A stretch of 64,000 nucleotides of DNA from Brevibacillus sp. (GTDB taxonomy: Bacteria > Bacillota > Bacilli > Brevibacillales > Brevibacillaceae). The notes beneath the pieces are model-generated. The model made no database searches and was not told the origin of the DNA. It saw only the letters and a list, made by a program, of their open reading frames with translations. A program made the position numbers and the translations under genes. The stretch spans positions 1 to 64,000 of the forward strand of contig JACDOF010000007.1 of assembly GCA_017656235.1 (NCBI GenBank), given 5' to 3'. Position 1 is the stretch's first letter, and each line of letters begins with the position of its first letter. Positions 6,636-62,839 of this stretch are shown one piece after another.

Positions 6636-6944
6636 CTAGTCAGGCAGTGGTAGATTGTATTTTTGTGGATTGCGGTAATAATCCTTGTAGTTGTATTGTC
6701 CAATGAACTTAAAGGTCTTACCTTTTTCATCAAACTCAAAAACTAGAATTTGACCATGCATACCTGAATTAGTATTTGTCTTTACCACTGCTATTCTATT
6801 TTCGGACAGACGAACAACGCTTTCACCAATTGAATCATTTGAAACTGATACTGGTGGGAATTGGAAACTGTATGACGGAAGGGGTTTCCTCCTTTTCTTC
6901 TCTTGAAAATTATAGCTGAATCCAGAGTGACATGGAATTGTCAA
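6636..6944 (-). pseudogene. 5'-truncated secreted/membrane-anchored hypothetical protein, copy 1
   Basis: The conserved core is GMHGQILVFEFDEKGKTFKF and IGQYNYKDYYRNPQKY; it is shared with a degraded paralogue at 28745-29039. The paralogue shows that the real N-terminus should be a membrane anchor ending near KPVPS. Here that part is replaced by unrelated residues beginning at the edge of the IS3 remnant. No ribosome binding site precedes the ATG at 6944. It probably lost its anchor through the insertion. Confidence 0.6.
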
Positions 6945-7400: not shown

Positions 7401-7629
7401 TCAATTATATCCCGGCGGTGACACGAACTTATGGTTGAGTTCGTGGAAGAACGACAATAATGATAGAGGATACCCTCTTTTCTTCGTTCCCTTGTTACGG
7501 CGGGGGATTACATGTACTCTCTCCATAAAATGTAAAATTTTTGTGAAAGACAAATTACGACAAACAATCCATTGCAAACCTATTATTATCTATATTTGAA
7601 AGTATTATCCAAATAAGGAGAGGAGAACT

Positions 7630-9010: not shown

Positions 9011-9303
9011 CTTTCATCAAACCTCTTTACACGGAGTTAAGACCAAGGATAACTTTGTGTAAAGGGGTTGTTTTTCTATGGTGCGTAAAAAGTATCACAA
9101 AGCCTTCAAGATAGCTGCCGTGATGCAGATCATGGATGAAGGAAAGAAGGTCTCCCATGTTGCGAAGGCTTTAGGCATTCTTCCTACGATGCTTAGCCGA
9201 TGGGTGTATGAATATCAAACCCACGGTGATGAAGCATTTACAGGTAACGGGAAGCCAATCGCCAACAAGGAACTTGAAATCAAACGGCTACAAAAGCGCT
9301 TGG
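9005..9303 (+). mobile_element. IS3-family left end with truncated orfA
   Basis: From about 9005 (TGGACTTTCATCAAAC, IS-end like), an OrfA starts at ATG 9078: RKKYHKAFKIAAVMQIMDEG with a helix-turn-helix (VSHVAKALGILPTMLSRWVY). It breaks off after KELEIKRLQKRLA. The rest of the element is absent; the remaining frame to 9413 is unrelated sequence. Confidence 0.7.
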
Positions 9304-9523
9304 CGTTCTTCCTTGTAAAACCTTCATCGCCAGCTTCATCTATATATACATTAAAGACTCTTTGGTCTATCACGAATATTTTCACCTCTAAGTATTTTCC
9401 AAATCATACTTAATATGCTATAGATTGAATAGATAGGAAAATAGACCCTATTTATTATTCGTATCTTCATTTTTTTAAAACTAGTTAAAATTGAGCCACA
9501 AATCATTTAGGGGTGCGACTACT

Positions 9524-28744: not shown

Positions 28745-29039
28745 CTAGTTAGCGTATTTTTGTGGATTGCGAAAATAATCCGCATAGTTGTATTGTCCAA
28801 TCAATCTAAAGGTTTTACCTTGCTCATCAAACTCAAAGACCAGGATTTGACCATGCATGCCAGAATTAGCATTCGTCTCCACTACTGCTATTTTCGGATA
28901 GCTGGACAATGCTTTCACCATTTGAATCATTAGGAACTCACACTGGCGATTGAAAGAATGACGGAACCGGTTTTAAGGCAATTACAACTAAACAAATGAG
29001 AATACCAATCATGACGAGATCCTTGATTTCCTGCGACAT
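28745..29039 (-). pseudogene. Membrane-anchored hypothetical protein, copy 2, with nonsense and frameshift
   Basis: ATG at 29039 after GGAGG opens MSQEIKDLVMIGILICLVVI, a membrane anchor, then ALKPVPSFFQSPV and a TGA where the copy at 6636 has TCA. Downstream, AATAGCAGTAG lacks 4 bases relative to copy 1, which shifts the frame. The remainder (GMHGQILVFEFDEQGKTFRL, GQYNYADYFRNPQKY) is still readable. Two lesions make it a pseudogene. Confidence 0.7.
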
Positions 29040-31722: not shown

Positions 31723-32121
31723 TCACTCAATATCAATCACACTAAAGTCAGAGACAAGATCACTAGGATGAATGACGCCGCCTTCACTCCCATCTTCTTT
31801 CATAACGGTGTAGCCGTCCTTGTCAAAGTAACTGGGGGTGAGCTGATGGAGAGCATCAAACAACGAACCTGCTTCAATCAGCTCCAGAATACTTGCACCT
31901 CGATGGTCATCGTGTACGTATACGGTATGGTCAAATCCGGCTTCAACGATTTCTTGCAAAGCCTGTTCAGAGTTCATGATAAACGATGTGACTGTATAAT
32001 AGTGATCTACTGCTCCTCCAATGTAAATACCTGATTCAACAACTGCCAGAGCCGGGCTTGCTGCACTCCCCAAAAGGGCCGCCGTACAAATGGAAACCAC
32101 CCACTTCCTCAACGGTTTCAT
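31723..32121 (-). CDS. Exported hypothetical protein
   Basis: 132 residues after AAGGGGAT, with signal peptide MKPLRKWVVSICTAALLGSA cut near SPALA. The mature part is acidic and has EQALQEIVEAGFDHTVYVHD and SLFDALHQLTPSYFDKDGYT; the end is DLVSDFSVIDIE. Unknown family. It lies 37 bases downstream of the large subtilase gene on the same strand, so it could be cotranscribed and act on or with the protease. Confidence 0.7.
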   Translation of the reverse strand: MKPLRKWVVSICTAALLGSAASPALAVVESGIYIGGAVDHYYTVTSFIMNSEQALQEIVEAGFDHTVYVHDDHRGASILELIEAGSLFDALHQLTPSYFDKDGYTVMKEDGSEGGVIHPSDLVSDFSVIDIE

Positions 32122-32158: not shown

Positions 32159-34696
32159 CTACGGACGAATCGTAAATGTCATCCGAATCGCCTGTTTAAG
32201 CTGTTTTCCCGAAGACGATCTGACTGCGTCGGTGATAATCAGATCGTATTGCTGACCCTTGAGATAATTTCCTGCCGGGGCGTATACCAAAACTGACTGT
32301 CCGTCTGATCCGACCGTAACAGCTTGATCAATCGTATTGCCTGACGTGTCAACGACGTACACGTTTTTGTTTGTCACGCTGGCCAGGTCTAACTTTTGGT
32401 TAAAGCGAATCGTCCAGGTTTTGGTGGCTGGGACGTTGGTTTTGGCTGGCCATTCCAGATAGTCATCCCCATTGGTAACGGTCACGGCTGCAGAGACAGA
32501 TTTTCCTTTGTACGCGGCCGTCACCACTGCTGTTCCTTCGCTGATAGCCGTCACGAAGCCGTCGTCAACCATGACGATTTTCTCATCACTGGAGGTCCAG
32601 GAAGCAAGGCTGGTTACGTTCTCTTCCGAATCGTCGGTATAGATCGCGGCAGCGTCAAGCTGCTTGGACTGGCCGATCTGCATCACCAGATTCTCCTGAG
32701 ACAGCCGCAGATCAGATACGGTCTTGTCCGCGTCGTCGGCAAACGTGCCGCTGGTCGCAAGCGCGTACGGCTGCGGTCCCTCCGGGATGTTGAAGCCGGT
32801 CACCGTGACGGTGTAGATACCGGGTTCGGGGCTTAGGATATAGGTTCGTTCCACGTTGTTCAAGTGATCCACTTCATCGTCAGGTGCACCGTTGAGGTCG
32901 TTGCCGTTGTAGGTTTTGCCGCTTGGCGACTTGACGACGAGGTTCAGGTCGTTGACCAGTGTTCGGGCTGCGATCGGCGTGCTGGGATAATCCGTCCAGA
33001 CCAGCGTGGCGACAAACGGCTGGTTCGTGTCGGTTACGTGGATATAGTACGTTCGGCTGTCGCCGGTCTTTAGTGCATCTGTCTCATCAATGAAATCCGT
33101 TTCAATCGCGGCCTGCAGGTTGGCGCGGCCAAATCCCTGCTGTGCGACGGGCAGCGACAAATCTTCCGCGCCAGTAAGCAGCATCGCTTTGATCAGGGCG
33201 CCGGACGGGTCGGCGTGCCCACGTTCGGCCAGGAACTGGCGAATCTGAGCCACGCCGCCGGCCAGAACCGGGGCGGCCATGCTGGTGCCGCTCATGTAGG
33301 CGTAGTGCTCGTTGTAAGGAAGATCGAACGCATTATCACTGGCCAGAGAAGAGCGAGTCGACAGGATCATGCTTCCGGGTGCGACGATGTCCGGTTTGAT
33401 CCGTCCGTCTGCCGTTGGACCTTGGCTGCTGAAGTCGGCAACGTCGTCCGCGTCGTCGGCATACTTGCTGGTACCGGTCGCCTGTTGGCTGACGGTCGGC
33501 CGTATGTTCTCCGATGCGCCAACGGCGATCACATTCTTGGCTGTGGCAGGGGTGCCGACCGTGGTTGGTCCTTCATCGCCGAGGTTTCCGGCCGCGACCA
33601 GGATGGTCATGTCCTTGTTTTCCCAAAGGAACTGATCCATGATCGCAGAGTAACTGCCGTACTCTCCGAAATCATCGACGCCCCATGAGTCGGAGTGGAT
33701 GCGGGCGCCGTCGTCGTAGGCTTCCTGCAGAATCTGCGTGACGTCACCGGCCAAGCCGCCATCTTCCGTCAGCATGGAGTGAAACACCAGTTTGGCATCG
33801 GGAGCCATCCCCTTGATCTGACCGTTGGAAGCCGCACCCGTTCCCAGTACTGAACCGGCTACATGGGTACCGTGTCCATGTGGGTCGCTGGTGTCGCCGG
33901 GGCGGCCGATGGCGTACAATCGCAAAATTCTTCCCGCAAAATCGGGGTGGATTGCGTTTGGCTTCCCGGTGTCAAGGCCCGTGTCGGCTACCCCGATGAT
34001 TTGACCGGCACCGGTATACCCAGTTTCGGCAAGCTCGTCTGACTGAATGATGCCGGCAGCCACATCATTGCGCAATTTTCGCTCCTGTACCGGTTCAATG
34101 GCTATCACATCATCGGAAAAGAGCAGTTCTTTAAGCGATTCCGCGTTTACGGAAACATGAGATATGTGGGGAACTTCCGATTTGTCAAGCGACTCAGCCT
34201 GCGGAGCCAGTTTTCGTATGGTGCGGGAGACATCCTGGTCTTGGTTAAAGCCGAATACGGCAACTTTTACTTCCTTTTCATCGTCTAACTGCTTGAGCAG
34301 TTCCGGTGACAGTTTGTAGGCAGGATCAAAGGGGCGTACGGAATGGACGAAAGGGAGTTCGGTCAGCTGCTCTCTGTCCTCGCTCTCACTCAGCTTGGCA
34401 ATGTAGGCGAAATCAGGTATGTAGTAAGCCAGTTCGACGTCTAACGTTTCCAACTCTTCTTTCCATTCCTCCTGAATCGGGCCGTCAAACTGGACGATCA
34501 TCAGGTTGGAGCGGTACTCGGTGCTGCGCCAGCTTTTTGGCAGCGGTGCAGGCGTAAGCGACAGCTCGTGTTCGCTCCTGATTGTGCCCGCAGCTTCTGG
34601 ATGTGCGGGTGCGGCATCAACCGGCAGGGAGAGAGAGCCCGCCACAAACGAAAGCGAGAGAATACCAGTTAGGGCAAAGCGAGGCAGTTTCTTCAA
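32159..34696 (-). CDS. Secreted subtilisin-like serine protease with Ig-like C-terminal domains
   Basis: 845 residues. Signal peptide about 1-28 (ending PVDAA), a long pro-region to about 225, then the S8 catalytic domain with Asp238 (VADTGLD), His275 (GHGTHVAG) and Ser472 (GTSMAAP). A beta-sandwich (about 530-680) typical of KP-43-type proteases follows, then a BIG2-like domain (about 690-760, ending SVSAAVTV) and a SbsA-like Ig domain at the end (WTIRFNQKLDLASVTNKNVY). There is no SLH or lipobox, so it is probably released. Such enzymes degrade extracellular proteins. Transcribed on the minus strand with the small exported gene following. Confidence 0.92.
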   Translation of the reverse strand: MKKLPRFALTGILSLSFVAGSLSLPVDAAPAHPEAAGTIRSEHELSLTPAPLPKSWRSTEYRSNLMIVQFDGPIQEEWKEELETLDVELAYYIPDFAYIAKLSESEDREQLTELPFVHSVRPFDPAYKLSPELLKQLDDEKEVKVAVFGFNQDQDVSRTIRKLAPQAESLDKSEVPHISHVSVNAESLKELLFSDDVIAIEPVQERKLRNDVAAGIIQSDELAETGYTGAGQIIGVADTGLDTGKPNAIHPDFAGRILRLYAIGRPGDTSDPHGHGTHVAGSVLGTGAASNGQIKGMAPDAKLVFHSMLTEDGGLAGDVTQILQEAYDDGARIHSDSWGVDDFGEYGSYSAIMDQFLWENKDMTILVAAGNLGDEGPTTVGTPATAKNVIAVGASENIRPTVSQQATGTSKYADDADDVADFSSQGPTADGRIKPDIVAPGSMILSTRSSLASDNAFDLPYNEHYAYMSGTSMAAPVLAGGVAQIRQFLAERGHADPSGALIKAMLLTGAEDLSLPVAQQGFGRANLQAAIETDFIDETDALKTGDSRTYYIHVTDTNQPFVATLVWTDYPSTPIAARTLVNDLNLVVKSPSGKTYNGNDLNGAPDDEVDHLNNVERTYILSPEPGIYTVTVTGFNIPEGPQPYALATSGTFADDADKTVSDLRLSQENLVMQIGQSKQLDAAAIYTDDSEENVTSLASWTSSDEKIVMVDDGFVTAISEGTAVVTAAYKGKSVSAAVTVTNGDDYLEWPAKTNVPATKTWTIRFNQKLDLASVTNKNVYVVDTSGNTIDQAVTVGSDGQSVLVYAPAGNYLKGQQYDLIITDAVRSSSGKQLKQAIRMTFTIRP

Positions 34697-38112: not shown

Positions 38113-38151
38113 AACAGTCTGTGGAAAGGTCGTCTGCAGGCTGTTTTTGTC
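38113..38151 (+). terminator. Terminator
   Basis: AACAGTCTG pairs with CAGGCTGTT (one G-T), followed by TTTTGTCTTTT. Confidence 0.65.
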
Positions 38152-38237
38152 TTTTGGAAAATAACCAATCTTGTGTTATAGTTGAGTTCAGTAGTGGCAG
38201 ATAGGCAAGTGACGTGAATGGATGGGAGCGGAGTGGG

Positions 38238-39200
38238 ATGATAAGTTTTTTGAAGAACTGGTTAACAAAAGGGACAGGTGCCGTACAGGAAGCAGTGGAA
38301 GCAAGAGAGGAATCCGTGTTGTCGGAGGACGAAGTGCTTCCCGTGTCAGGTCAGGCGGACAACGCGGAGCAAGGGACCAGCACGAAGGGGCCTGATCTCG
38401 TTGAGACACCGCTCTCCTTGCATCCCGACTGGGAGCGACAAATGGATGCCAACCAAAAGTACTCCCTTATGTTTATGGCCAGCGAACTGCCGCCGATTGC
38501 CAGCGGCAGCGTATCACTCGTCGGGATCAAGATCTTTCCGAACGACGAGGGAGTGGAAGTGACGGCGTTTATTCGCAACGGTCTGTCTCGTCCGGTGCGT
38601 TTTGAACAGATGAATCTGCTCCTGTTGTTTGACGACAACAAGTTGTTTGCCCGGCAAACCTTTGATCTGTCGGAAGTTGGGGAAATTCCGGCTCATCATG
38701 CCCGGCCATGGAGTTTTGTGTTTCAAAGGGAAAATTTCCTGGTTACGGATGTGGTGCTTTCCAACTGGAAGCTGGCGTTTGAACTCTCCCAGAAAAAGCT
38801 GGTACTCCCACAGCAGTTGGAACTGGAAGAGTCCTGGATCAAGGCGCTCAACGACGAACAGAAGCAGTCGCTGATCCAGTTGGCCAAGCGGCTGCCGCCG
38901 CTGAAACCAGGCGAAGTGAACGTGCAGGCTGTTACGCTCACCAAGAGTGAAGACGGGGCGTTGCGGGCGCTGCTGTTGATTCGAAATGGTTCACGGAAGT
39001 CGCTTTCTTTTGAAAAGCTGCCGCTGATGTTGATGGACGCAAAAGGAGACAAGGTGGCAGAGGGGTTGTTTGAACTGAACGGTCTCACGGTTCGACCGGA
39101 GACGAGCAAGCCGTGGTTGTTTATCTTCCCTGAACAGAGTTTGTGCAAGAAGGAGCCCGATTTGTCCCGCTGGAAGGTGGTTGTTCCGACCAAAGCATGA
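38238..39200 (+). CDS. SLAP-domain protein 1 (accessory Sec/S-layer assembly type)
   Basis: ATG at 38238 follows GGAG. The 320-residue cytosolic protein has a short amphipathic start (MISFLKNWLTKGTG), an acidic linker, then two SLAP domains. The first starts LSLHPDWERQMDANQKYSLM and includes ELPPIASGSVSLVGIKIFPN, VTAFIRNGLSRPVRFEQM and SSRPW-like PWSFVF. The second starts near residue 190 with LPPLKPGEVNVQAVTL and LLLIRNGSRKSLSFEKLPLM. The pair is typical of proteins linked to the accessory SecA2 system and S-layer export in Bacillales. secA2 itself is not in the window. Confidence 0.8.
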   Translation: MISFLKNWLTKGTGAVQEAVEAREESVLSEDEVLPVSGQADNAEQGTSTKGPDLVETPLSLHPDWERQMDANQKYSLMFMASELPPIASGSVSLVGIKIFPNDEGVEVTAFIRNGLSRPVRFEQMNLLLLFDDNKLFARQTFDLSEVGEIPAHHARPWSFVFQRENFLVTDVVLSNWKLAFELSQKKLVLPQQLELEESWIKALNDEQKQSLIQLAKRLPPLKPGEVNVQAVTLTKSEDGALRALLLIRNGSRKSLSFEKLPLMLMDAKGDKVAEGLFELNGLTVRPETSKPWLFIFPEQSLCKKEPDLSRWKVVVPTKA

Positions 39201-39255
39201 CTTGACAGCTCTGTATTGGCTGAATCTTTGAAAACAGACTGGTTAGGAGGATACG

Positions 39256-40206
39256 ATGTTCTCATTCATAAAAAACTGGTTGACAAAAGATCAGAACCGA
39301 CAACGTTCCCTTGATGAATTAAAGCAGGATATACAGGAGAGCACGACGATACCAGCCGAGGCGGCTGAAGAGGAGAGGGAACAGGTGGATGCGGCGAGCA
39401 GGCCGACTGCCGCAGCGGTGCGGAAAGTACGTACCGAGCTCTCGCTGCACCCGTCCTGGGAAGCGGCTCTCGATGCAGAGAAGAAGTATACGCTGCGCTT
39501 TTTACAGGCGGAACTGCCGGAAATGGACGAAGGAACGCTCGGCATCACCGGGTTCAGCTTGATTCCCAACGAGGTGGGCATGACTGCTGCCGTCTTCTTC
39601 CGCAATGGTACCGGGCAGCCGATCCGTCTCAAAAATCTAACGCTGCTGATTATGTTTGACGACGAAGTATTTGCCCGCCAGTCGTTTGACTTGAGCGAGT
39701 TGGGCCAGATTCCGCCCTACAGCAGCCGACCGTGGGAAATCGTCTTCCCGCGAACCAGCTTTCTCACGGATGACATTCAGTTTGAGCGCTGGAAAGTGGC
39801 GATTCAGTTGAGGCGCGTATGGCCGAAACAGCTTGATCTGGACCCGCAGATGGAAGCGCGCATGAGTGAGGAACAAAAAGACCGCCTGCACAAGATGGTT
39901 CGCATCCTGCCGCCGCTGTCTCCCAATGAAGTGGGAGCGACCGGGTTTGACATCACAATGGCGAAGGACGGCCGATTGGTGGTCGGCGTGTTGTTCCGCA
40001 ACGGGATGTCCAGCCCGTTCAACCCCAAGAAACTGAAGATCGAGGTTCGGGACAAATCGGGCGACCTTGTCGCTGGCGGTACGGTTGACGCCAGTCGGGT
40101 AGAGGTGAAGCCGGGTACGAGTCGTCCGTGGATTATCGTTTTCCCGCCCAATGCGGTAAGGAAGCCAAACGCCGATCTGGAGAAGTGGACATTGAACGTA
40201 AAGTAA
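39256..40206 (+). CDS. SLAP-domain protein 2
   Basis: ATG after TTAGGAGG. The 316-residue paralogue has the same plan: MFSFIKNWLTKDQNR start, acidic linker, SLAP 1 (LSLHPSWEAALDAEKKYTLR, ELPEMDEGTLGITGFSLIPN, AVFFRNGTGQPIRLKNLTLL) and SLAP 2 (ILPPLSPNEVGATGFDITMA, VGVLFRNGMSSPFNPKKLKI). It lies 55 bases after protein 1 and 26 before protein 3, hence one operon. Confidence 0.8.
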   Translation: MFSFIKNWLTKDQNRQRSLDELKQDIQESTTIPAEAAEEEREQVDAASRPTAAAVRKVRTELSLHPSWEAALDAEKKYTLRFLQAELPEMDEGTLGITGFSLIPNEVGMTAAVFFRNGTGQPIRLKNLTLLIMFDDEVFARQSFDLSELGQIPPYSSRPWEIVFPRTSFLTDDIQFERWKVAIQLRRVWPKQLDLDPQMEARMSEEQKDRLHKMVRILPPLSPNEVGATGFDITMAKDGRLVVGVLFRNGMSSPFNPKKLKIEVRDKSGDLVAGGTVDASRVEVKPGTSRPWIIVFPPNAVRKPNADLEKWTLNVK

Positions 40207-40232
40207 ACGAGTAATCGGAGGTTTATGTTGAT

Positions 40233-41216
40233 ATGAGCTGGTTATTGGAAAATTGGTTTGGCGGTAAAGAAAGCCTGGAACAGGCTCGCGAAGAGATACA
40301 GCGTTACGCGCAAAAAGAGGTGTATCTGGGGGTATCCGGTTTGGAAAACCCGGAGCAGTCATCGACACGCATGGCACCGCAAGATTTGTTTCTTAGCTTG
40401 TATGGTCCGTGGGATAACAAACTGGAGGAAAACGAGGCGGAATTTCTGCGTTTTGTCCACGACGAATTGCCGCCTGTCGTACGGGACGAGGTGGGCATCA
40501 TTCCGTTTTTTTCCACACCTACGACCAAGGGTTACCTCGTTCTGACCTTTATCCGCAATGCCAGCAAGCGCGATATCGCCTTCTACAAGCTGCCGCTTTC
40601 GCTGGTCGACGAAAAGGGGGAAGTGGTGGCCAAGAAGACGTTTGACATGCTCAAGTACGGCAGTGTCGGTGACAAATCGAGCCGCCCCGCAGAGTTTTTG
40701 TTCTCGTGGGACGCGTTTGCCCGGATGCCTGAACAAGATGAACAACTGTTCCTCCGTTTCGACGCGCCGCTGCGCAAGAAAAGAACCGTCAGCAAGCAGC
40801 CGACGACACTGACGCCGGTTGAGCAGGCCCATTACGAAAACATGGCTGCCCGGCAGCAGTTGACCGTCCAGCCTGGAGAAGTCAAACTGGATCCGCTGGA
40901 CATCCTCCCGGCTGACGAAGGAGCGCTGAAAGTCATTGTCCTGTTCCGCAACGGTCTTGACAAACGGGTGGAGTTCACGGAAGTGCCGATTTTACTCCGT
41001 GACCGCGACGGTGCGGAAGTGGCCCGCGTCCGGTTCGGGCTGAAAAATTTGCACGTTGACGCGAACAGCAGTCTGATCTGGGGCTTTACCATACCAAATG
41101 AATCCATCACCAAGCCGTACGTCAAGGCCGAGGAGTGCTCGGCGTATATTCCGGACCCCAAACCGGAGAAGATTCGCCGAGTCAGACGCACGCCGCGCGG
41201 TGGGATCGTACAGTAA
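40233..41216 (+). CDS. SLAP-domain protein 3, divergent
   Basis: 327 residues, ATG after ATCGGAGG. It keeps the amphipathic start (MSWLLENWFGGKESLEQARE) and two SLAP units (DELPPVVRDEVGIIPFFSTP with LTFIRNASKRDIAFYKLPLS; LTVQPGEVKLDPLDILPADE with VLFRNGLDKRVEFTEVPILL). The linkers and the C-terminus (a basic tail ending RRVRRTPRGGIVQ) differ. The basic tail could contact nucleic acid or membrane. A terminator follows. Confidence 0.75.
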   Translation: MSWLLENWFGGKESLEQAREEIQRYAQKEVYLGVSGLENPEQSSTRMAPQDLFLSLYGPWDNKLEENEAEFLRFVHDELPPVVRDEVGIIPFFSTPTTKGYLVLTFIRNASKRDIAFYKLPLSLVDEKGEVVAKKTFDMLKYGSVGDKSSRPAEFLFSWDAFARMPEQDEQLFLRFDAPLRKKRTVSKQPTTLTPVEQAHYENMAARQQLTVQPGEVKLDPLDILPADEGALKVIVLFRNGLDKRVEFTEVPILLRDRDGAEVARVRFGLKNLHVDANSSLIWGFTIPNESITKPYVKAEECSAYIPDPKPEKIRRVRRTPRGGIVQ

Positions 41217-41237: not shown

Positions 41238-41278
41238 ATCCCCCGTTGTTTTTGGACGGGGGATTCTTATCCTTTTTT
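41238..41278 (+). terminator. Terminator of SLAP operon
   Basis: ATCCCCCGT and ACGGGGGAT form a 9-base stem, followed by TCTTATCCTTTTTT. Confidence 0.8.
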
Positions 41279-42310: not shown

Positions 42311-42413
42311 TCCCTCTTGCACGAAGCATGAAATGGCTTGGTGCATTGACTTCTCTTTCGCTTCCAACTTTTCTTAAAGTTGTGACTTGAAAGAAAGAGA
42401 GGACGCTGTTGTG

Positions 42414-44981
42414 ATGGAGAGGCAACTGCGAAAATGGCTGATCGGCTGGATCGTCTGTGCGCTGCTCGTCACCTGCTGGCCAATCCATGATCAGGTGTGG
42501 GCTGCTTCCGTCACGCCCAACGATCCGTATTTCAAAAGCCAGCCCCATTTGAAGCAGATCAAGGCGGACAGGGCATGGAGCTACGTCACCGGCAATACCG
42601 CGATCAAGATCGCTGTACTTGATTCCGGTGTGGATCGCGATCACCCCGATTTAAAGAACAATTTACTGCCTGGCATCAACCTGCTTTCACCGGGACGGCC
42701 TCCGGAAGACGACAACGGCCACGGTACGGCGGTCGCGGGGATTTTGGCTGCCCAGGGAAACAATCGCATCGGAATCACCGGGGTGATGTGGAATGCGCAG
42801 ATCATTCCGATCAAGGTGTTGGATCGCCACGGCAAAGCGCTGGTTCAGCACTTGACAGAGGGAATCAACAGGGCGGTGGATCTGGGGGCCAAGGTGATCC
42901 TGATGTCCGTCAGTTCCATCCATCACTCACCGGAATTGGAACAGGCGGTCAAGCGAGCGGAGGCACACGGTGTGGTTCTGGTTGCGGCAGCCGGAAACGA
43001 ATCCAGCCGGGTGGCCTACCCGGCCGGGTACCCGACGGTGATCGCTGTCGGAGCCGTCGATCAGAACAACAAGGTGATTTATCAGTCCAATACAGGACCG
43101 GAATTGAATCTGGTTGCCCCTGGCTGGAGCATCTATACCACCAAGATGGGCGGCAGTTACTGGTCGTTTAAAGGAACGTCAGCCGCCGCGCCTCAGGTAG
43201 CTGCAGCGGCGGCGTTGATTTTGGCCCGTCACCCCAACATGACTCCGCTGGAAGTGCGGCAGCTGCTGTATCATACGGCTGTCGACCTGGGCCCCAAGGG
43301 TTGGGACAGGCAGACCGGGTACGGGCTGCTTAATGTGGAAGATGCCATGCGGAAAAAACTTCCTGCTGACATCAACGAACCAAACAACAGCCAGTCCAAG
43401 GCCGCTGCCTTTCCGATTGAAGCACAGGTCCGCGGCGCCCTCAACGATTCCGACCCGGTAGATTGGTTCTACACCGATGTCCCGTATAGCGGAAAGCTTT
43501 CCGTATCCGTCTGGGTCACACCGCAGACCATCGCGCCGATCGCCGTTACCTTTTTTAGCGGCGGCCGCCCGGTCACGTATTACCCGAACAGCGGCCATGT
43601 GTTGAATGTTCCGGTACAAGCGGGCAGAGTGTACGTAAAAGTGGAGCGGGGAAGCGGTGCCGGTTCCTTTTCCTATCTCCTGACCAGTCAGTTCACGATT
43701 GCACCGGACCGCTACGAAAACAACGACAACATCGACGCGGCCCGTCCCCTGCCGCCTGGCAACCGTGTCAGCGTGCTGGGCAACTTTCACAAACCGGGGG
43801 ATGTGGATTGGTTTTCCTACTACGTGCGCGATCCGGGAAAGCTGGATGTGACCGTGACTGCCGACACGTACCGGATGGACCCGATCCTGTACATTGCCAA
43901 AGAAAAGGAAAAAGGGGTGCCGATTGACAACAACAGCAGCAATCCCAATATTGAACGGGCCAACCTGGACGTCACCCCTGGCAAGTACTATCTCAGGTTA
44001 ACCGACTACTGGAACAACCAGGTGAACGGTGAGTACCAGCTGGAAGTGGTCTACACGCCGGAGCGGCGGGACGAGAATGAGCCGAACGATACGTACCATC
44101 GGGCCACCCGGTTGGGGAAAAATGATACGCTCATGACGGGAACCCTCCCTTCCGAACACGACTATGACTGGTTCCAGTTTGAGATGACCGAGGATACGTA
44201 TGTGACGATTCGCGCTCCGTACATTCCGGTTCAGTCGGGCGTGCGCTTTGCTCTCTACAAGGCGGGAGCGGATCGAAACTACCTGTTGGCCTCCGCAACC
44301 AACGTGGCCGAATTGTCACGGGCCGGCAGCTACATCTATGCGTACAAAATGACACCCGGGACCTATTATGTACGCCTGCAGAGTGTGGTACCCTTCCGGT
44401 ATGACGTGTACCGGCTGACGATCAGCAGGGAGCGGTTGGTGGACGGGTATCGCGACATCAGCACGCACTGGGCACGCAAAGAGATCGCCAATCTCACCCG
44501 ACAGGGGATCGTGCGGGGCTTTGAAGACTCCACCTTCCGCCCCAACCAAACTGTGACCCGCGCCGAGTTTGCGACCATGTTGATTCGGGCAATGGCCAGG
44601 AAGGGATTGTACACGGGGTCGTCCAACGTGAAAAATCCGTACCGCGATATCACCCGCTCACACTGGGCCTATCAGGACCTGATGAAAGCTTACAGTATCG
44701 GCATCCTGTCCGGTTACCCGGACGGAACGCTTCGCCCCAACCGGCCGGTTACCCGCGCGGAAATGGCGGTAATGGTGGCACGGGCCAAAGGATTGTATAC
44801 CTACAAGCGTACCCGCAGTTCGTACGATGACGTATCGGTCAACCATTGGGCATCTCCGGCCATCGAGACGCTGAGCAGCGTGGGCTACGTCAGGGGAACC
44901 AGCTACCGGACGTATCAACCGCAGGCGAATACCCGCCGGGCCGAAGTGGTCGTACTGTTGACGAAAGCCTTTAACCTGTAG
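42414..44981 (+). CDS. Cell-surface subtilase with three SLH domains
   Basis: 855 residues from ATG 42414 (GTG 42411 possible; GAGAGG 8-11 bases upstream). Signal peptide about 1-31. The S8 domain has Asp70 (VLDSGVD), His103 (GHGTAVAG; Thr-Ala replaces the usual Thr-His) and Ser256 (GTSAAAP; usual GTSMA). Three PPC-type beta domains follow, each starting with an E-P/E-N acidic motif (DINEPNNS, DRYENND, DENEPND). Three SLH domains follow at about 690-855 (RDISTHWARKEIANLTRQGI, RDITRSHWAYQDLMKAYSIG, DDVSVNHWASPAIETL), which bind secondary cell wall polymer. It is thus a wall-anchored protease. Confidence 0.93.
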   Translation: MERQLRKWLIGWIVCALLVTCWPIHDQVWAASVTPNDPYFKSQPHLKQIKADRAWSYVTGNTAIKIAVLDSGVDRDHPDLKNNLLPGINLLSPGRPPEDDNGHGTAVAGILAAQGNNRIGITGVMWNAQIIPIKVLDRHGKALVQHLTEGINRAVDLGAKVILMSVSSIHHSPELEQAVKRAEAHGVVLVAAAGNESSRVAYPAGYPTVIAVGAVDQNNKVIYQSNTGPELNLVAPGWSIYTTKMGGSYWSFKGTSAAAPQVAAAAALILARHPNMTPLEVRQLLYHTAVDLGPKGWDRQTGYGLLNVEDAMRKKLPADINEPNNSQSKAAAFPIEAQVRGALNDSDPVDWFYTDVPYSGKLSVSVWVTPQTIAPIAVTFFSGGRPVTYYPNSGHVLNVPVQAGRVYVKVERGSGAGSFSYLLTSQFTIAPDRYENNDNIDAARPLPPGNRVSVLGNFHKPGDVDWFSYYVRDPGKLDVTVTADTYRMDPILYIAKEKEKGVPIDNNSSNPNIERANLDVTPGKYYLRLTDYWNNQVNGEYQLEVVYTPERRDENEPNDTYHRATRLGKNDTLMTGTLPSEHDYDWFQFEMTEDTYVTIRAPYIPVQSGVRFALYKAGADRNYLLASATNVAELSRAGSYIYAYKMTPGTYYVRLQSVVPFRYDVYRLTISRERLVDGYRDISTHWARKEIANLTRQGIVRGFEDSTFRPNQTVTRAEFATMLIRAMARKGLYTGSSNVKNPYRDITRSHWAYQDLMKAYSIGILSGYPDGTLRPNRPVTRAEMAVMVARAKGLYTYKRTRSSYDDVSVNHWASPAIETLSSVGYVRGTSYRTYQPQANTRRAEVVVLLTKAFNL

Positions 44982-44994: not shown

Positions 44995-45492
44995 ATGAAC
45001 AAGCACATCAAGGGAATGATCGCTCTTACCGCAGCAGGAGCCATGATTTTTGCCGGACAAGCCTGGGCTGACTACGCCGGTTCCGCAGGAATTCCCGGTT
45101 CGGCTGACGATCCGATTGTCACCAAGAGTTACGTCGACGAGAAGATTCAGCAGGCCCTGGCCGGTGTTCAGCCGCAGCAGCCCCAGCAGGTTCAATCGCC
45201 GCAAGACGGGGGTCTGGTTGTGGAAGAGCTGACACCGGGTGAGACGCTGTACGGCTTTGCCGGGACGGAATTTATCGTCCGGACCGGTCGTGTGGTGGCC
45301 GTACCTGGGCAAAACGGTGACGGATTAACGGATCTTACCGCAGGAGCTGATTTGCAGGGGGGGACACTTGTCGAGCTGAATCATTTGCTCTTGATTCCTC
45401 GTTCCGATTCGCGCGGTTTGCGGTTGGCCCCTGATTACAACGGCAAGGCGTACGTCATCGTCCGCGGAAAATACGAATCGCGCAGCCAGTAG
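44995..45492 (+). CDS. Exported small protein
   Basis: ATG after AGGAGGGGG, 13 bases after the SLH protease, so same operon. 165 residues with signal peptide (MNKHIKGMIALTAAGAMIFA), a T-K-S-Y-V-D-E-K-I helix, a Gln/Pro linker and a beta-rich C-terminal domain (YGFAGTEFIVRTGRVVAVPG, YNGKAYVIVRGKYE). Hypothetical in related bacilli. It may serve as a substrate or partner of the surface protease. Confidence 0.75.
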   Translation: MNKHIKGMIALTAAGAMIFAGQAWADYAGSAGIPGSADDPIVTKSYVDEKIQQALAGVQPQQPQQVQSPQDGGLVVEELTPGETLYGFAGTEFIVRTGRVVAVPGQNGDGLTDLTAGADLQGGTLVELNHLLLIPRSDSRGLRLAPDYNGKAYVIVRGKYESRSQ

Positions 45493-45758: not shown

Positions 45759-46970
45759 ATGGCACTGCAAGAAGGTCGTCGACTGTTTACATCCGAATCT
45801 GTTACCGAAGGGCACCCCGACAAAATCTGTGACCAGATCTCCGACGCGATTCTCGACGCGATTTTGTCCAGGGATCCAAACGCACGGGTGGCATGTGAAA
45901 CAGCCGTCACTACCGGATTGGTGTTGGTGGCAGGAGAGATTACGACCAATACCTATGTTGACATTCAGAAGCTGGTTCGTGACACGATTCGCGAGATCGG
46001 GTACGACCGTGCCAAGTTCGGTTTTGACGCCGATACGTGCGGCGTCATTACGGCGATCGGCGAACAGTCGGCCGATATTGCGCTCGGCGTGGACAAGGCG
46101 CTGGAAGCGCGCGAAGGAAAAATGACGGATGAAGAGATTGAAGCAATCGGAGCCGGTGATCAGGGCCTGATGTTCGGGTTTGCCTGCAATGAAACACCGG
46201 AATTGATGCCCCTGCCGATCAGCATGGCCCATCAGCTGGCCCGTCGACTGACCGCTGTGCGCAAGGACGGTACGCTTTCCTACCTGCGTCCCGACGGGAA
46301 AACTCAGGTGACGGTTGAATACGAGGGAGACAAGCCGGTTCGGATCGACACGATTGTCATTTCCACTCAGCACGCACCGGAGGCGACGCTGGAGCAGATC
46401 AAGGCAGATCTGATGGAACACGTCATCAAACCGGTGGTACCCGCCCACTTCCTGGATAGCGAGACCAAGTATTTCATCAATCCAACCGGACGCTTTGTCA
46501 TTGGCGGACCGCAAGGGGATGCTGGATTGACCGGCCGCAAAATCATCGTCGATACATACGGCGGTTATGCCCGTCACGGCGGCGGCGCTTTCTCCGGAAA
46601 AGACCCGACGAAAGTGGACCGTTCCGGCGCATATGCGGCGCGTTATGTGGCTAAAAACATCGTCGCTGCCGGACTCGCTGACAAGTGCGAGGTACAGGTG
46701 GCCTATGCGATCGGGGTGGCCCAGCCGGTATCGATTTCCATTGATACGTTTGGGACTGGAAAGCTGGCTGAATCGGATCTGGTTCAATTGGTACGCAAAC
46801 ATTTTGACCTGCGTCCGGCAGGCATCATCAAGCAGTTGGATCTGCGTCGTCCGATCTACAAACAAACGGCGGCATACGGTCACTTCGGGCGCAACGATCT
46901 GAACGTGCCGTGGGAAAAAACGGACAAGGCAGAAGTACTGAAGCAAGATGCGGCTCAATTGAGAAAGTAG
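45759..46970 (+). CDS. metK: S-adenosylmethionine synthetase
   Basis: 403 residues, ATG after AAGGAGG. It makes SAM from ATP and methionine in the cytosol. The N-terminal ATP/Mg site [50 protein letters not shown] (hexapeptide), [20 protein letters not shown] with [20 protein letters not shown] (P-loop-like) are all intact. The riboswitch upstream gives negative feedback by the product. Confidence 0.98.
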
Positions 46971-48213: not shown

Positions 48214-49353
48214 ATGGGTATAGACGTGAGTGTGCTGGACAAAGTGATCCAGAAAACGGTGAAAGCAGTGGAGTCCAGCAAGGAGCAGATTTTTGAGATT
48301 GCGGAGAGCGCCCGGAAGGAATACGAGGCGATGAAGCGGGAAGTGCACGATGTGCGGGAGGCGATTGGGGAAGTCATCCGCCAGGTTGACGCCCTGGATC
48401 TGAAATACCGCAAGGCACGCAGCCGATTGATGATGGTAAGCAAAAACTTTCACGAATACACGGAGGACGATATTCGTGCGGCCTATGAAGAGGCGCACGA
48501 TGTCCAGGTTGAACTGCTGTTGGCCCGCGAGCGGGAAACCAACCTTAGAAAACGGCGCGACGATTTGGACATGCGGCTGCGCAACCTGGAGCATACCATT
48601 CAGAAAGCGGAAAATCTGATGTCGCAGATGGGCGTCGTGCTGAGCTACTTGATGGGAGACCTCGGTCAGGTAGAGGAGATGTTGGCGACGGCCAAGCAGC
48701 ATCAATTGATGGGACTGCGGATTATTCAGGCACAGGAAGAGGAGCGGAAACGGGTTGCCCGAGAAATCCACGATGGTCCGGCGCAGTCGATGGCCAATGT
48801 TGTGCTGCGTGCCGACCTCGTCGAGCGCATGCTGAAGAACGAGCAGGTGACAGAGGCGCTTAAGGAACTGCAGGGCTTGAAAGAAATGGTCCGGCTCAGC
48901 TTGGCGGACGTGCGGCGGATCATATTCGATCTGCGGCCGATGGCCTTGGACGATCTGGGACTGGTCCCGACGCTGCAAAAGTATATCCAGACGTTCGAAG
49001 AGCAGTCAAGACTGCAGGTGGAACTGATTGTGTTTGGCAAGGAGCAGTCACTGGACAGTTCCTTCAAGGCCGGGATCTTTCGGCTGGTGCAGGAGTGCCT
49101 GAACAATGTGGCAAAACACGCCTCTGCCCGATTTGTGCAGGTGAAGCTGGAGTTTCAGCCGGAGACATTGTTTCTTGTCGTCAAAGATGACGGTGTCGGC
49201 TTTTCCGTCGAGCAGACCAAGCGAAGCGGCAATTCGTTTGGTATCCTTGGCATGAGAGAGCGTACACAGCTTTTGCAGGGGAAGATGGAGATTACGTCAG
49301 CGCTGCAGCAGGGAACGAAAGTGTTTTTCCAGATACCACTAAAGGGCGATTGA
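48214..49353 (+). CDS. degS: Sensor histidine kinase DegS
   Basis: 379 residues, cytosolic, with an N-terminal DegS sensor coiled coil (about 1-165). A HisKA_3 box follows with phospho-His186 in [17 protein letters not shown], then [20 protein letters not shown] and an ATPase end ([40 protein letters not shown]). It phosphorylates DegU, encoded next. The pair controls exoenzymes, competence and motility in Bacillales. Confidence 0.97.
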
Positions 49354-49378
49354 GCAGGTGCGAGGAGGTATGGTTGTA

Positions 49379-50089
49379 ATGGAGAACCACGTAGCAGGGA
49401 TCAGCATCGTTTTGATAGATGACCACAAATTGTTTCGGGAAGGGATCAAGCGTATTCTGGAGATGGAACCGGATATGCGCGTGGTCGGGGAAGGGGCCGA
49501 CGGTGAAGATGCCGTCCGCCTTGCGGAACAGTGCAGCCCCGATGTCATCCTGATGGATATCAACATGCCCAACGTGAACGGTGTATCGGCGACGGAGAGC
49601 GTCATGGAAGCCAGTCCCAGGTCGCGGATCATCATATTGTCGATTCACGATGATGAAGGGTATGTCTACCGCACCCTCCGCTCGGGAGCGTCAGGGTATT
49701 TGCTCAAGGAGATGGAAGCGGACGATCTGGTGGAAGCGGTGCGCGTCGTGGCCAACGGCGGAGCGTATATTCACCCCAAAGTGACCGGCAAGCTCATTGA
49801 AGAGTTCCGCCGGTTGTCGGATCAGGAAGAGAAAAGCGACCGTCCTTTTTACATGGACGGCGGACAAAACGGCAGCGACAAAGTGATCGAGTCGCTGACC
49901 CGGCGTGAACGGGAAGTGCTCCAGTTGATGGCGGAAGGAAAGAGCAACCGGGTCATCGGAGAGTCCCTCTTTATCAGTGAAAAGACGGTGAAAAACCACG
50001 TCAGCAGCATTTTGCAAAAATTGGACGTACAGGATCGTACGCAGGCGGTCGTCATTTCGATCAAAAACGGCTGGGTGAAGCTATCGTAG
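49379..50089 (+). CDS. degU: Response regulator DegU
   Basis: ATG at 49379 lies 10 bases after GGAGG (in-frame ATG 49370 is too close). 236 residues: receiver with phospho-Asp60 ([10 protein letters not shown]) and Lys in SGYLLKEM, then a LuxR-type HTH ([40 protein letters not shown]). In B. subtilis it activates comK, degradative enzymes and gamma-PGA genes, and represses or activates flagellar genes depending on phosphorylation. Here it precedes the competence and flagellar genes. Confidence 0.97.
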
Positions 50090-59344: not shown

Positions 59345-60175
59345 ATGATTATCCAACACAATATTTCAGCCATGAACACCCATCGCAATCTGGGCATCAA
59401 TAGCCTGAACCTGTCCAAAAACGTGGAGAAGCTGTCGTCCGGTTACCGCATCAACCGTGCGGCTGACGACGCTGCCGGTCTTTCCATCTCCGAGCGCATG
59501 CGTGCACAAATCCGCGGTATGGAGCAAGCTGCTCGCAACTCGCAAGACGGGATCTCCCTGATCCAGGTTGCTGAAGGTGCGCTGCAAACCGTTAACAACA
59601 TGCTGGTGCGCATCAAGGAACTGGCTACCCAGTCTGCGAACGGTACCTACCAAGATGCTACGGACCGCGCTCGTTTGCAAGAAGAGGTCACTGAGTTAAA
59701 TAATGAAATCCTCAACATTGCGAACAATACCAAGTTCAACGGAATTAACCTTCTTAATGGTACTGCAGCGGGTGGTGCTATCGAGTTGCAAATTGGTCAG
59801 GAAGCGACTCAAGTGCTGAGCTTGGACGCTACGAAATTTAATTTGACTGCATCTGTAACAGGTGCTGTAGGCAGCTGGAATATCGGTACTCAAGCTGGCG
59901 CATCCAGTGTATTGGTCAGCATTGAAGATATTATCAACTCGGTAAGTGCAATGCGCTCTTATCTGGGTGCCAACCAAAACCGTCTGGAAAATACCATCAA
60001 CAACCTGAACATCACCGCAGAAAACCTGACGGCTGCCGAATCCCGCATCCGCGACGTGGATATGGCGAAAGAACAGATGCAGTTCACCAAAAACAATATC
60101 CTTACGCAAGCATCGCAGGCGATGTTGGCGCAAGCGAACCAATTGCCGCAGGGCGTACTGCAACTGCTTCGCTAA
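59345..60175 (+). CDS. hag: Flagellin
   Basis: 276 residues. The conserved D0/D1 N-terminus (MIIQHNISAMNTHRNLGINS, KLSSGYRINRAADDAAGLSI, ARNSQDGISLIQVAEGALQT) and C-terminus (NNLNITAENLTAAESRIRDV, QASQAMLAQANQLPQGVLQL LR). The central region is very short (about residues 140-200), so no D2/D3 ornament. It polymerises outside as the filament. Regulated by SigD and by CsrA/FliW; a glycosylation island follows downstream. Confidence 0.98.
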   Translation: MIIQHNISAMNTHRNLGINSLNLSKNVEKLSSGYRINRAADDAAGLSISERMRAQIRGMEQAARNSQDGISLIQVAEGALQTVNNMLVRIKELATQSANGTYQDATDRARLQEEVTELNNEILNIANNTKFNGINLLNGTAAGGAIELQIGQEATQVLSLDATKFNLTASVTGAVGSWNIGTQAGASSVLVSIEDIINSVSAMRSYLGANQNRLENTINNLNITAENLTAAESRIRDVDMAKEQMQFTKNNILTQASQAMLAQANQLPQGVLQLLR

Positions 60176-60181
60176 TTGGAG

Positions 60182-60220
60182 AAAAGCATGGATTCCCAAA
60201 TCGGGGTCCATGCTTTTTTA
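60182..60220 (+). terminator. Terminator of hag
   Basis: GCATGGA and TCCATGC stem, followed by TTTTTTA; preceded by A run. Confidence 0.85.
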
Positions 60221-60261
60221 CTATATATGTAGGACATTCGTAGTTAACTGTCTTTCCATGC

Positions 60262-60292
60262 CGCCCTATAAGAAAATAAGGGCGTCTTTTTA
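60262..60292 (+). terminator. Second hairpin downstream of hag
   Basis: CGCCCT with AGGGCG around an A-rich loop, followed by TCTTTTTAT. Confidence 0.55.
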
Positions 60293-60371
60293 TATCAAAA
60301 TTTATTGTAATTCAAAGAAGGAAATCATCCGAAAAAGATAAAGAAAGAATTGTTAGGGGAGGCGGCCAACC

Positions 60372-60971
60372 ATGCATGTTACCATCAAGGATCAGGAATA
60401 CTTCTTCGACAACAATTTGCAAGCAGTCCAACAGATCGTAGAACAAATCAATACCACTATCTTGAATACCGGCCTTCTCTTGAGTCATGTGGTTGTGGAT
60501 GGGGTGGAAGTGTTCGGAGATCCTGAACAATATATTCGGGATAACCTGGGCAAGATCGAGCGTATCCATGTGCAATTGGTGACGCCCACACAATTTTTAC
60601 TTGATGTCCTTCATACCGGGCAGGAGTACCTTGCAGGTGCCATTCCTCAACTGTCACCGCTGATTGACGAGTTTTATGCAATTCCCACCAGCGATTCCTG
60701 GCACAAATTAAGCCAATTGGCGGAGGGAATCCAATGGTTTCAACAAACGGAATCGTTTATTCGTGAGACGAAGTCGCTTCCCGAATGGACGAACAGCCTG
60801 CGGGATGCCGTTCAATTTAAGCCAATCTTGTCACAATTGGAAGAAGCGGTTACACAAGCTGACGCTACGATGATTGGAGACATTATACAATACGAGATCC
60901 TGCCACGCTTTGAAAATCTGTCCCAACTGCTCAGAGAAATCCTAACAGACGGGGTTGAACCATCATGTTAA
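60372..60971 (+). CDS. Unknown protein coupled to Maf glycosyltransferase
   Basis: 199 residues, ATG after GGGAGGCGG. A beta-alpha start (MHVTIKDQEYFFDNNLQAVQ, GLLLSHVVVDGVEVFGD) resembles a small ubiquitin-like or phage-like fold; the rest is helical (FIRETKSLPEWTNSLRDAVQ, YEILPRFENLSQLLREIL). It overlaps the Maf gene by 7 bases, so it is translationally coupled. No family is recognised; it could be a partner or chaperone in flagellin glycosylation. Confidence 0.8.
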   Translation: MHVTIKDQEYFFDNNLQAVQQIVEQINTTILNTGLLLSHVVVDGVEVFGDPEQYIRDNLGKIERIHVQLVTPTQFLLDVLHTGQEYLAGAIPQLSPLIDEFYAIPTSDSWHKLSQLAEGIQWFQQTESFIRETKSLPEWTNSLRDAVQFKPILSQLEEAVTQADATMIGDIIQYEILPRFENLSQLLREILTDGVEPSC

Positions 60972-62824
60972 TAGAAAACATCAATTATCTGAAAACAAAG
61001 TTTCCAACTGCGTGGAAAGTTTTTCAAGCTGCGGAGATTGCAGGTGATCAGCACATAACACTGGAAATGGCCAAAAATCAGCAACATACAGTAACTGTTC
61101 ACATAGAGGGACGTATTAATTATCTGCACAGCAGTTACGATCCACAAGCGGAAGCTGCCAGATTTATTACCCAGCAATCGGAGATCGGGAAGTACAAGCA
61201 TGTGTTTTTCTATGGTGTGGGACTTGGATATCACATCGCTGAATTTGTTAAGCGTTATCCAGACACACCATTTTCGATCTATGAACCAGAAGCTGCTATC
61301 TTTAGGCATCTATTATCTGCGTTTGATTTACAGCAATGGAAAAATAACTTAAAAAATATCTACCTGGAAGATAAACCTGGAGCCAGTTATTACAACCTCA
61401 AACATTTCACGCAAACGATCAAAGAAGATGTTGGGATCGTGATACTCCCCAGCTATGAGAGAATCTTTCGGGATAAGACCAGCCAGTTCATCGCACAATT
61501 TCGGGAAGCAGTTTTCGCAAAAAAATCGTATATTCAGGCAAGCAGAGTATTCGCAAAACGTATTACCATAAACAATGTTATCAACCTTTCCAAGGTGGTT
61601 CATTCACCAGACATCCTAATGGAGGGGAGGGATTCTTTTCAGGGAAAGCCAGCGATCGTGGTAGCGGCCGGTCCATCGCTTGATCAAGAATACGAAAATC
61701 TCCGGTTTATTAAAGAAAACGGACTCGCCTATATCTTTTCAGTAGGTTCTGCAGTGAATTCTCTTATCAAACAGGGGATCTATCCGGACGCCGCCTGTAC
61801 ATACGATGGTAGTGTAAAGAACGCAACGGTGTTCCAAAAGATCGTAGACGAGAACATAACGGATATCCCCCTCTTTTTTGGAACGACGGTTGGCTTTGAA
61901 ACATTGCAAAACTATCCGGGCAAGATGTTTCATTTTCTGGTTAACCGTGATACGATTTCTCCTTTCTTCTTGCGCAGGAAGGACAATCGGGAGCTGGAGA
62001 TGGTCAAGGGGTATAAGACGATTGCTACGATTACTCTTCAACTTTTGTCGAAATTAGGGTGCAATCCGATTATCCTCGTGGGTCAAAACTTTGCCTACAC
62101 CCAGACACAACGGTATGCGCAGGGGATTGATTATATCAGCCCCGAGCTGAAAAAGGATACGATGAAAGATCTTACAACTGTTATCGACGTTTATGGGAAT
62201 GAAACCCTGACCAGCCGAACGTTTGACATGATGAGATTGGAGATGCAGGAGCTTATCTCTTCATTGGACACTACAGAGGTAATCAACACGACCAAAGGTG
62301 GCGCCCGCATTGAAGGAACAACGTTTATCCCTCTGGAGGAAGTAATTCAAAACAAGCTGAACACAAAACAAATCGTTTCCCGCCAATGGTTAGAGATGAA
62401 ACCAACAGAGTATGATCTGGAATTTTTCAAGAAACAGGCAGAACAAATGGAAACAATTCGCGTTAAATTCGAACAGATTGTCAACAAGTTTGATGAACTT
62501 TTCGCTGAGATGAACCACTACATTCAGAGCCGGAACTACAAGCAATTAGAGAAATGCTTTACCAAATTTGACAAGCTCTTTACCCGGCTGCAGAGGAGCG
62601 AGTTCAATTCCCGAGTCATATTCCCAATGAACAACCTGATGTTTGAGCAGATCATGAAAATGTTTGAAGAAGTTCGTTTCTCCAAAGACGTGGTAGCAAA
62701 AGCAAAGCGCGTCATGGATGAATTCGGGATGTATCTGGACAACTGCCGGACAGACATGAAGGTAATCAAGTATCTCCTGGAAGAAATGCAGCAAGAAGTG
62801 CTGGGGGAAATCGTCACGGCATAA
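60965..62824 (+). CDS. Motility-associated factor (Maf) glycosyltransferase family protein
   Basis: 619 residues. The DUF115/MptE-like core is seen around residue 220-340 (GKPAIVVAAGPSLDQEYENL, AYIFSVGSAVNSLIKQGIYP, DAACTYDGS, NPIILVGQNFAYTQTQRYAQ). The N-terminal domain has YKHVFFYGVGLGYHIAEFVK, and the C-terminal part is a long coiled coil. Maf proteins transfer nonulosonic acids (legionaminic or pseudaminic) to flagellin. Position directly after hag and before legB/legC supports that. Confidence 0.9.
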   Translation: MLIENINYLKTKFPTAWKVFQAAEIAGDQHITLEMAKNQQHTVTVHIEGRINYLHSSYDPQAEAARFITQQSEIGKYKHVFFYGVGLGYHIAEFVKRYPDTPFSIYEPEAAIFRHLLSAFDLQQWKNNLKNIYLEDKPGASYYNLKHFTQTIKEDVGIVILPSYERIFRDKTSQFIAQFREAVFAKKSYIQASRVFAKRITINNVINLSKVVHSPDILMEGRDSFQGKPAIVVAAGPSLDQEYENLRFIKENGLAYIFSVGSAVNSLIKQGIYPDAACTYDGSVKNATVFQKIVDENITDIPLFFGTTVGFETLQNYPGKMFHFLVNRDTISPFFLRRKDNRELEMVKGYKTIATITLQLLSKLGCNPIILVGQNFAYTQTQRYAQGIDYISPELKKDTMKDLTTVIDVYGNETLTSRTFDMMRLEMQELISSLDTTEVINTTKGGARIEGTTFIPLEEVIQNKLNTKQIVSRQWLEMKPTEYDLEFFKKQAEQMETIRVKFEQIVNKFDELFAEMNHYIQSRNYKQLEKCFTKFDKLFTRLQRSEFNSRVIFPMNNLMFEQIMKMFEEVRFSKDVVAKAKRVMDEFGMYLDNCRTDMKVIKYLLEEMQQEVLGEIVTA

Positions 62825-62839
62825 ATGGAGGAGAAAGAT

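Follow-up and report, generated by a model that had tools for sequence, protein, structure and literature searches.

A conserved trio of tandem SLAP-domain genes in the Brevibacillus family, which has a single SecA, and its possible role in S-layer export

The SLAP1-SLAP2-SLAP3 locus

The stretch of DNA analysed here (the window) comprises 64,000 nucleotides, positions 1 to 64,000 of contig JACDOF010000007.1, from a Brevibacillus sp. draft genome (GCA_017656235.1; 3.6 Mb in 31 contigs, completeness 100). The element of interest is a tandem set of three plus-strand open reading frames (ORFs), SLAP1, SLAP2 and SLAP3, which encode proteins of 320, 316 and 327 residues (Table 1); an alternative in-frame GTG start for SLAP1 lies at position 38214. 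All three products match the SLAP_DUP model TIGR04398 (curated cut-off 28.5 bits), which is duplicated in each protein, at E values that exclude chance matches, confirming the first-pass annotation of the window, in which three tandem SLAP paralogues with two units each had been recognized. The third had been called divergent, and SLAP3 is indeed the most divergent of the trio, with 25-30% identity to the other two; it carries the SLAP match assigned to it when searched with the profile hidden Markov model. With the SlaP model TIGR04399 (cut-off 250 bits), SLAP1 is the sole member to score above the cut-off (295.2 bits), SLAP2 and SLAP3 lying below it at 226.1 and 126.1 bits. SLAP3 also displays a weak likeness to DUF3426 in Pfam (PF11906; 33.2 bits versus a cut-off of 27.7). 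A search of the whole genome gave no SLAP matches other than the six units of the trio.

The intergenic gaps are 55 nt between SLAP1 and SLAP2 and 26 nt between SLAP2 and SLAP3. Together with the hairpin and promoter-like site upstream and the strong terminator-like hairpin downstream (Table 1), these short gaps indicate that the trio most likely forms one tricistronic transcript, in agreement with the single operon proposed earlier. In 19 of the 22 family loci the 170 nt downstream of SLAP3 contain a similar hairpin, compared with 7 of 110 shuffled sequences. An SLH protease had been listed as a neighbour and does follow downstream, but the hairpin separates it from the trio, so that it is probably on a separate transcript.

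SLAP1-3 have no hydrophobic run of more than five residues within the first 45 and no 19-residue Kyte-Doolittle window above 1.57, making signal peptides and membrane spans unlikely. The amphipathic N-termini described in the first-pass annotation are poorly borne out: the mean hydrophobic moment of residues 1-11 was not clearly above that of permuted sequences (fractions of 0.11, 0.07 and 0.27 for SLAP1, SLAP2 and SLAP3), and residues 1-15 of SLAP3 mostly carry a net charge of -1. It is the N-terminal sequence itself that is conserved, with a mean column consensus of 0.95 over residues 1-20 of SLAP3 (22 orthologues) and a conserved EESVL stretch just past the N-terminus of SLAP1, which by eye is similar to a segment in the corresponding position of SLAP proteins linked to SecA2. 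The basic tail noted for SLAP3 is real in this genome but is not a trait of the family: across the 22 orthologues the C-terminal 20 residues range in net charge from -3 to +5, which rules out a family-wide basic tail, and +5 is confined to the genus of the window.

Single-chain AlphaFold2 models built from six sequences (mean predicted local distance difference test scores of 74.9 and 73.8; predicted template modelling scores of 0.49 and 0.51; N-termini of low confidence) show, with moderate confidence, a helical segment and an immunoglobulin-like β-sandwich, repeated twice. Fold searches with the SLAP1 model returned a general immunoglobulin-like arrangement at most (Foldseek best E value 1.6e-4 with a template modelling score of 0.18; VIA best Z score 6.5), and no structural relative is claimed, as these scores lie below a meaningful level.

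SLAP is present in all 39 genomes of the family, 36 of which contain six units and three seven. The order SLAP1-SLAP2-SLAP3, followed on the same strand by the S8-SLH protease and metK, is kept in each of 21 other loci, 20 from genomes of the family and one from Brevibacillus migulae, in which SLAP2 is 51% identical and the neighbourhood matches that of the window. Three loci (L009, L022 and L024) contain an extra protease gene on the opposite strand within the trio-to-metK stretch. A degS homologue lies downstream in 20 of the 21 loci, the remaining locus ending earlier. A phylogenetic tree recovers the three paralogues as separate clades, each with bootstrap support of 100, and pairs SLAP1 with SLAP2 as sisters (97/88). 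The branch leading to SLAP3 is long (2.23 changes per column), and the exact placement of SLAP3 is unsure. By tree and gene order, then, SLAP1-3 are three old orthologue groups in a fixed arrangement. Differences from the two nearest relatives fall mainly at third codon positions (62/45/175 for SLAP3), and judged by this pattern the trio is under purifying selection.

SecA complement and distribution of SLAP

The genome encodes one SecA, an 848-residue protein adjoining hpf and located outside the window (G000:C7:83079-85625; L001:1462-4008). SecA_DEAD searches covered this genome, its family and 398 genomes sampled across the class. In the window genome they gave one further, weak match (C1:275415), which at 23.6 bits falls short of the cut-off. 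Exactly one SecA is found in each of the 39 family genomes (E up to 1e-20), several of which are single-contig assemblies. None of the 22 family loci, that of the window and the 21 others, contains a SecA match, so there is no secA2 beside slaP; no hidden secA2 was detected in the family by these searches or by tblastn within the loci. The first-pass annotation had remarked on the lack of secA2 in the neighbourhood, and this absence extends to the whole genome and to every genome of the family. The link that it drew to an accessory Sec system fails for this genome, in which neither a second SecA nor a secA2 next to slaP, two marks of the Bacillus-type system, is found.

The lone SecA is best described by SecA1 models (scores of 1140 and 1228, versus 1094 for the SecA2 model TIGR04397). 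It lies narrowly above the TIGR04397 cut-off of 1085, as do two of three further family SecA proteins (1094, 1094 and 1088 above; 1079 below), and seven other SecA1 proteins score 1021-1069. The SecA adjoining SLAP in locus L120 is itself below the cut-off (905). The score was considered as proof of a SecA2-like hybrid nature of the lone SecA and rejected as such, the shift being small and perhaps phylogenetic.

The C-terminus of the family SecA is distinctive. The cysteine-containing SEC-C zinc tail is present in none of the 39 family proteins, in 27 of 33 SecA1 proteins from elsewhere and in none of 13 SLAP-linked second SecA proteins (the readable tails from 16 loci, three having no ORF by the filter used; L092 was left out). 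In agreement with this, the Pfam search that detected SEC-C (PF02810) in a control did not find it in the SecA of the window genome. All 39 family proteins end instead in a conserved basic tail, TSGPSxRP...SGDAxPKNRAQRRAxxQE..., which in the window genome reads TSGPSERP...NRAQRRAEEQE. The NRAQRRA motif occurs in 36 of the 39 and in none of 46 others; the SecA1 of L179 has a similar basic tail.

Across the class sample, SLAP was found in 133 of 398 genomes and at least two SecA matches in 131, a count in which the two matches of one genome (G088) proved to be one split gene and other split genes may remain. The 36 members of the window's family in this sample each have one SecA, whereas each of the 39 genomes with a strong SLAP match (E < 1e-35) from other families has at least two. 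Other families (labelled f here) differ in their combinations. SLAP accompanies a single SecA in all ten genomes of f12, as does single-unit SLAP in f36 (six of six), f41 (four of four), f20 (three of three) and f51 (the one genome); all 29 genomes of f17 have weak SLAP and two SecA proteins; and among the 38 genomes of f3, 25 have both SLAP and a second SecA, 12 have neither and one has weak SLAP only. In a phylum-wide sample of 299 genomes, six have SLAP (E up to 1e-20), and four of the six lie outside the class; three of these four have one SecA and the other has a second SecA near SLAP. SLAP without a second SecA in several families and in three of the four out-of-class genomes means that SLAP is not bound to SecA2. 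The strongest two-unit SLAP proteins, on the other hand, accompany a second SecA everywhere in the sample but in the family of the window.

Of 40 SLAP loci taken from outside the family, 20 come from genomes with at least two SecA proteins and 20 from genomes with one. A SecA match is found near SLAP in 17 of the former, secA adjoining the SLAP gene in all 17, and in none of the latter. The earlier statement that one or two SLAP genes usually accompany SecA2 is broadly correct, as a single two-unit gene is present in most genomes with SecA2. Five SecA2-type SLAP loci (L083, L085, L089, L096 and L114) contain degS-degU within the same stretch of about 20 kb, and f12 loci (L098, L100, L103, L104 and L105) have the small gene, metK or degS on one side; these shared neighbours suggest that the SLAP loci of the window's family, of the SecA2 type and of f12 occupy one ancestral position.

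The single-unit SLAP proteins in families without SecA2 (L101, L102 and L106-L110) are 128-193 residues in length. Those of L101 and L102 lie beside large SLH proteins, and the genomes of L106, L107 and L110 have no listed SLH match. As a general rule, SLAP as a plain companion of SLH proteins was rejected on the class-wide comparison.

A possible role in surface-layer export

Surface-layer (S-layer) genes are found elsewhere in the genome, on contig C19 (locus L080), where the gene for a 1032-residue SLH protein (L080:11039-14134) precedes that for a Big_5-domain protein of 762 residues (L080:14364-16652). Both products look similar to the middle wall and outer wall proteins of Bacillus brevis 47. 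A gene for an SLH protein of about 2200 residues (L080:1247-7858) lies close to both. Within the window, a small exported protein (31723-32121, minus strand) shares 45% identity, across 109 residues, with the N-terminal part of the 762-residue protein and resembles either a free-standing N-terminal domain or a truncated copy; a large S8 protease (32159-34696, minus strand) is encoded next to it. In B. laterosporus, a passage of PMC9864115 describes multiple S-layers made of outer wall protein and middle wall protein.

An orthologue of the 1032-residue protein is present in all 39 family genomes. In 29 of them this S-layer gene shares a contig with the trio and always lies upstream of it in the same orientation, separated from it by 4.2-71 kb (median 20 kb); in the other ten, including the window genome, trio and S-layer gene lie on separate contigs. 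As the genomes are related, the linkage should be read as conserved synteny and not counted as 29 separate events.

We propose that the trio acts for SecA1 as an adaptor of the SlaP type in S-layer export, a reading that we hold with a probability of about 0.55. The trio would represent a triplicated SlaP module, with SLAP1 as the probable canonical SlaP and SLAP2 and SLAP3 as old paralogues with signatures of their own. Given the lack of signal peptides and transmembrane stretches, the proteins would act in the cytoplasm or on the inner face of the membrane. They may work jointly, probably as a hetero-oligomer, and the fixed order, the three orthologue groups and the group-specific terminal motifs would fit such a complex. 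The trio would bind the abundant SLH-type S-layer precursors and hand them to the sole SecA at SecYEG by a putative SLAP-SecA1 contact. The adaptor would in this family have been uncoupled from SecA2 and would serve the housekeeping motor, the altered C-terminus of which carries the conserved basic tail in place of the zinc-binding one. There being no other SecA, S-layer proteins must use SecA1 if they are exported by the Sec route. According to a passage of PMC9277125, the sap/eag genes of B. anthracis are preceded by slaP, slaQ and secA2, which support S-layer secretion. The surface-protein export role suggested in the first-pass annotation is plausible, with support from SlaP homology, the fixed position upstream of metK-degS and the linkage to an S-layer gene.

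Several observations weigh against an adaptor serving SecA1. The genomes behind all family counts are related, and the counts are not independent of one another. SLH proteins and SLAP are uncoupled over the class, f4 having many SLH proteins and no SLAP in the sample and some SLAP genomes having no SLH match. The distance between the trio and the S-layer gene amounts to kilobases or tens of kilobases, and the trio is not part of the operon of that gene. The zinc tail is kept in all three f12 SecA proteins examined, despite the presence of SLAP without SecA2 in that family, so that the change of tail is neither a requirement for SLAP without SecA2 nor a simple result of the absence of SecA2; the motif is also missing in six of the 33 other SecA1 proteins. 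Finally, a shared N-terminal amphipathic helix serving as a membrane anchor had to be set aside, as it is not significant against permutations.

The principal rival, which we regard as somewhat unlikely, sees the trio as a chaperone or scaffold in the cytoplasm by which S-layer precursors are held or positioned without contact with SecA, the precursors then taking the ordinary route to SecA1. Two SLAP units with immunoglobulin-like sandwiches, modelled at moderate confidence, resemble binding modules rather than enzymes, and the occurrence of SLAP without a second SecA in f12, f36, f41, f20, f51 and three of the four genomes outside the class means that contact with SecA2 need not be the core task of SLAP. 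The tight pairing of secA2 with slaP in 17 of 20 loci, however, points to work with a SecA. A role outside S-layer export, such as the control of exoproteases, competence or motility, appears improbable; the stable metK, degS and degU neighbourhood, the late flagellar genes nearby and the fact that SLAP does not require SLH proteins would accommodate it, but SLAP1 scores above the SlaP cut-off and the S-layer gene is linked in all 29 genomes in which linkage can be judged. It is very improbable that the three are redundant SlaP copies with no division of labour, as their identical domain layout and the sister relationship of SLAP1 and SLAP2 might be read, since by unit count all three are kept in 39 of 39 genomes, their order is fixed in all 21 other loci and each group has conserved residues of its own, above all at the termini of SLAP3. 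That a secA2 exists and was missed because the assembly is a draft of 31 contigs is hardly credible in view of its completeness of 100 and of the one SecA in all 39 family genomes, several of them on a single contig.

A bolder form of the proposed SecA1-serving adaptor, in our view quite doubtful, would have SlaP-type proteins rather than SecA2 as the specificity factors of S-layer export. A SLAP1-SLAP2-SLAP3 hetero-complex would then make SecA1 an S-layer translocase by docking on its remodelled tail, with SLAP3 as a possible bridge through its invariant N-terminus and G-phi-phi-Q motif. If true, this would help to explain the high secretion of Brevibacillus expression hosts.

Related systems, neighbouring features and significance

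The trio resembles SlaP (TIGR04399) of the SecA2/SlaP/SlaQ system of B. anthracis in having two SLAP_DUP units per protein and, for SLAP1, a score above the cut-off, and resembles SecA2-type SLAP loci in its degS-degU neighbourhood, shared in several cases, and its linked S-layer genes. Unlike B. anthracis SlaP, it consists of three paralogues rather than one in a genome without SecA2, with SLAP2 and SLAP3 below the TIGR04399 cut-off and SLAP3 bearing N- and C-terminal signatures of its own. The SecA2-free SLAP genes of f12 likewise encode two units in genomes with one SecA (ten of ten), but f12 has one such gene instead of a trio and its SecA keeps the SEC-C tail (three of three examined). 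The proteins of f20, f36, f41 and f51 share the SLAP_DUP match and the single SecA per genome and differ in carrying one unit instead of two. DUF3426 (PF11906) sits in proteobacterial membrane proteins; the score of SLAP3 above its cut-off suggests a related immunoglobulin-like sandwich, whereas SLAP1 is below the cut-off and SLAP2 is unmatched. The 'SLAP' domain of Lactobacillus surface layer protein A, which binds cell walls, has only the name in common: Pfam gave no match to it in the trio at E values up to 1, and the domain of the trio belongs to proteins without a signal peptide.

Table 1. Features of the SLAP locus and its downstream neighbours (window coordinates)
Feature	Position	Strand	Remarks
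Terminator-like hairpin	38113-38145	+	End of preceding gene's unit; 13-pair stem, T tail
Promoter-like site	38154-38182	+	TTGGAA-17-TATAGT, TG ahead of second hexamer; consensus match only
SLAP1	38238-39200	+	SlaP-type, two SLAP_DUP units; TIGR04398 E 3.2e-82, 272.7 bits
SLAP2	39256-40206	+	Paralogue, two SLAP_DUP units; TIGR04398 E 1e-73, 245.2 bits
SLAP3	40233-41216	+	Divergent paralogue, two SLAP_DUP units; TIGR04398 E 2.5e-48, 163.3 bits
SLAP3 N-terminal signature	40233-40295	+	MSWLLENWFGxKESLEQVREx; best conserved stretch of the protein
SLAP3 C-terminal motif	41202-41213	+	G-phi-phi-Q; closes the variable tail; 22 of 22 orthologues
Intrinsic-terminator-like hairpin	41238-41264	+	Closes the trio unit
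S8 subtilase	42387-44981	+	PPC and three SLH domains; same-strand downstream neighbour in 21 of 21 other loci
Small exported protein	44995-45492	+	Neighbour in many loci; no significant family match
metK	45759-46970	+	Synteny anchor; TIGR01034, 627 bits; 21 of 21 other loci
degS-degU-type two-component pair	48214-50089	+	PF05384 DegS and response regulator; anchor common to SecA2-type SLAP loci

Elsewhere in the window, separated remnants of an IS3-type transposase occur at 7099-7599 and 9078-9413 (plus strand). Two short minus-strand ORFs, at 6636-6944 and 28745-28930, encode the same kind of peptide (NSGMHGQILVFE) and are perhaps broken copies of one gene. At 59345-63850, continuing into L082, the genes that follow a flagellin gene encode a LegB-type dehydratase and other sugar-nucleotide functions, in an arrangement that looks like a legionaminic-acid-type flagellin glycosylation cluster.

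In the open-licence literature we found no report of SLAP or SlaP in Brevibacillus without SecA2, and the database name 'accessory Sec system' is misleading for the genes of the trio. With SlaP in triplicate, an S-layer gene in every genome and no SecA2, the family represents a natural separation of the two factors, so that the role of SlaP as the adaptor and the sufficiency of SecA1 become testable. Members of the family include the Brevibacillus hosts used for protein production, which have a high secretion capacity, and the trio and the altered SecA tail are obvious targets for study in these organisms.

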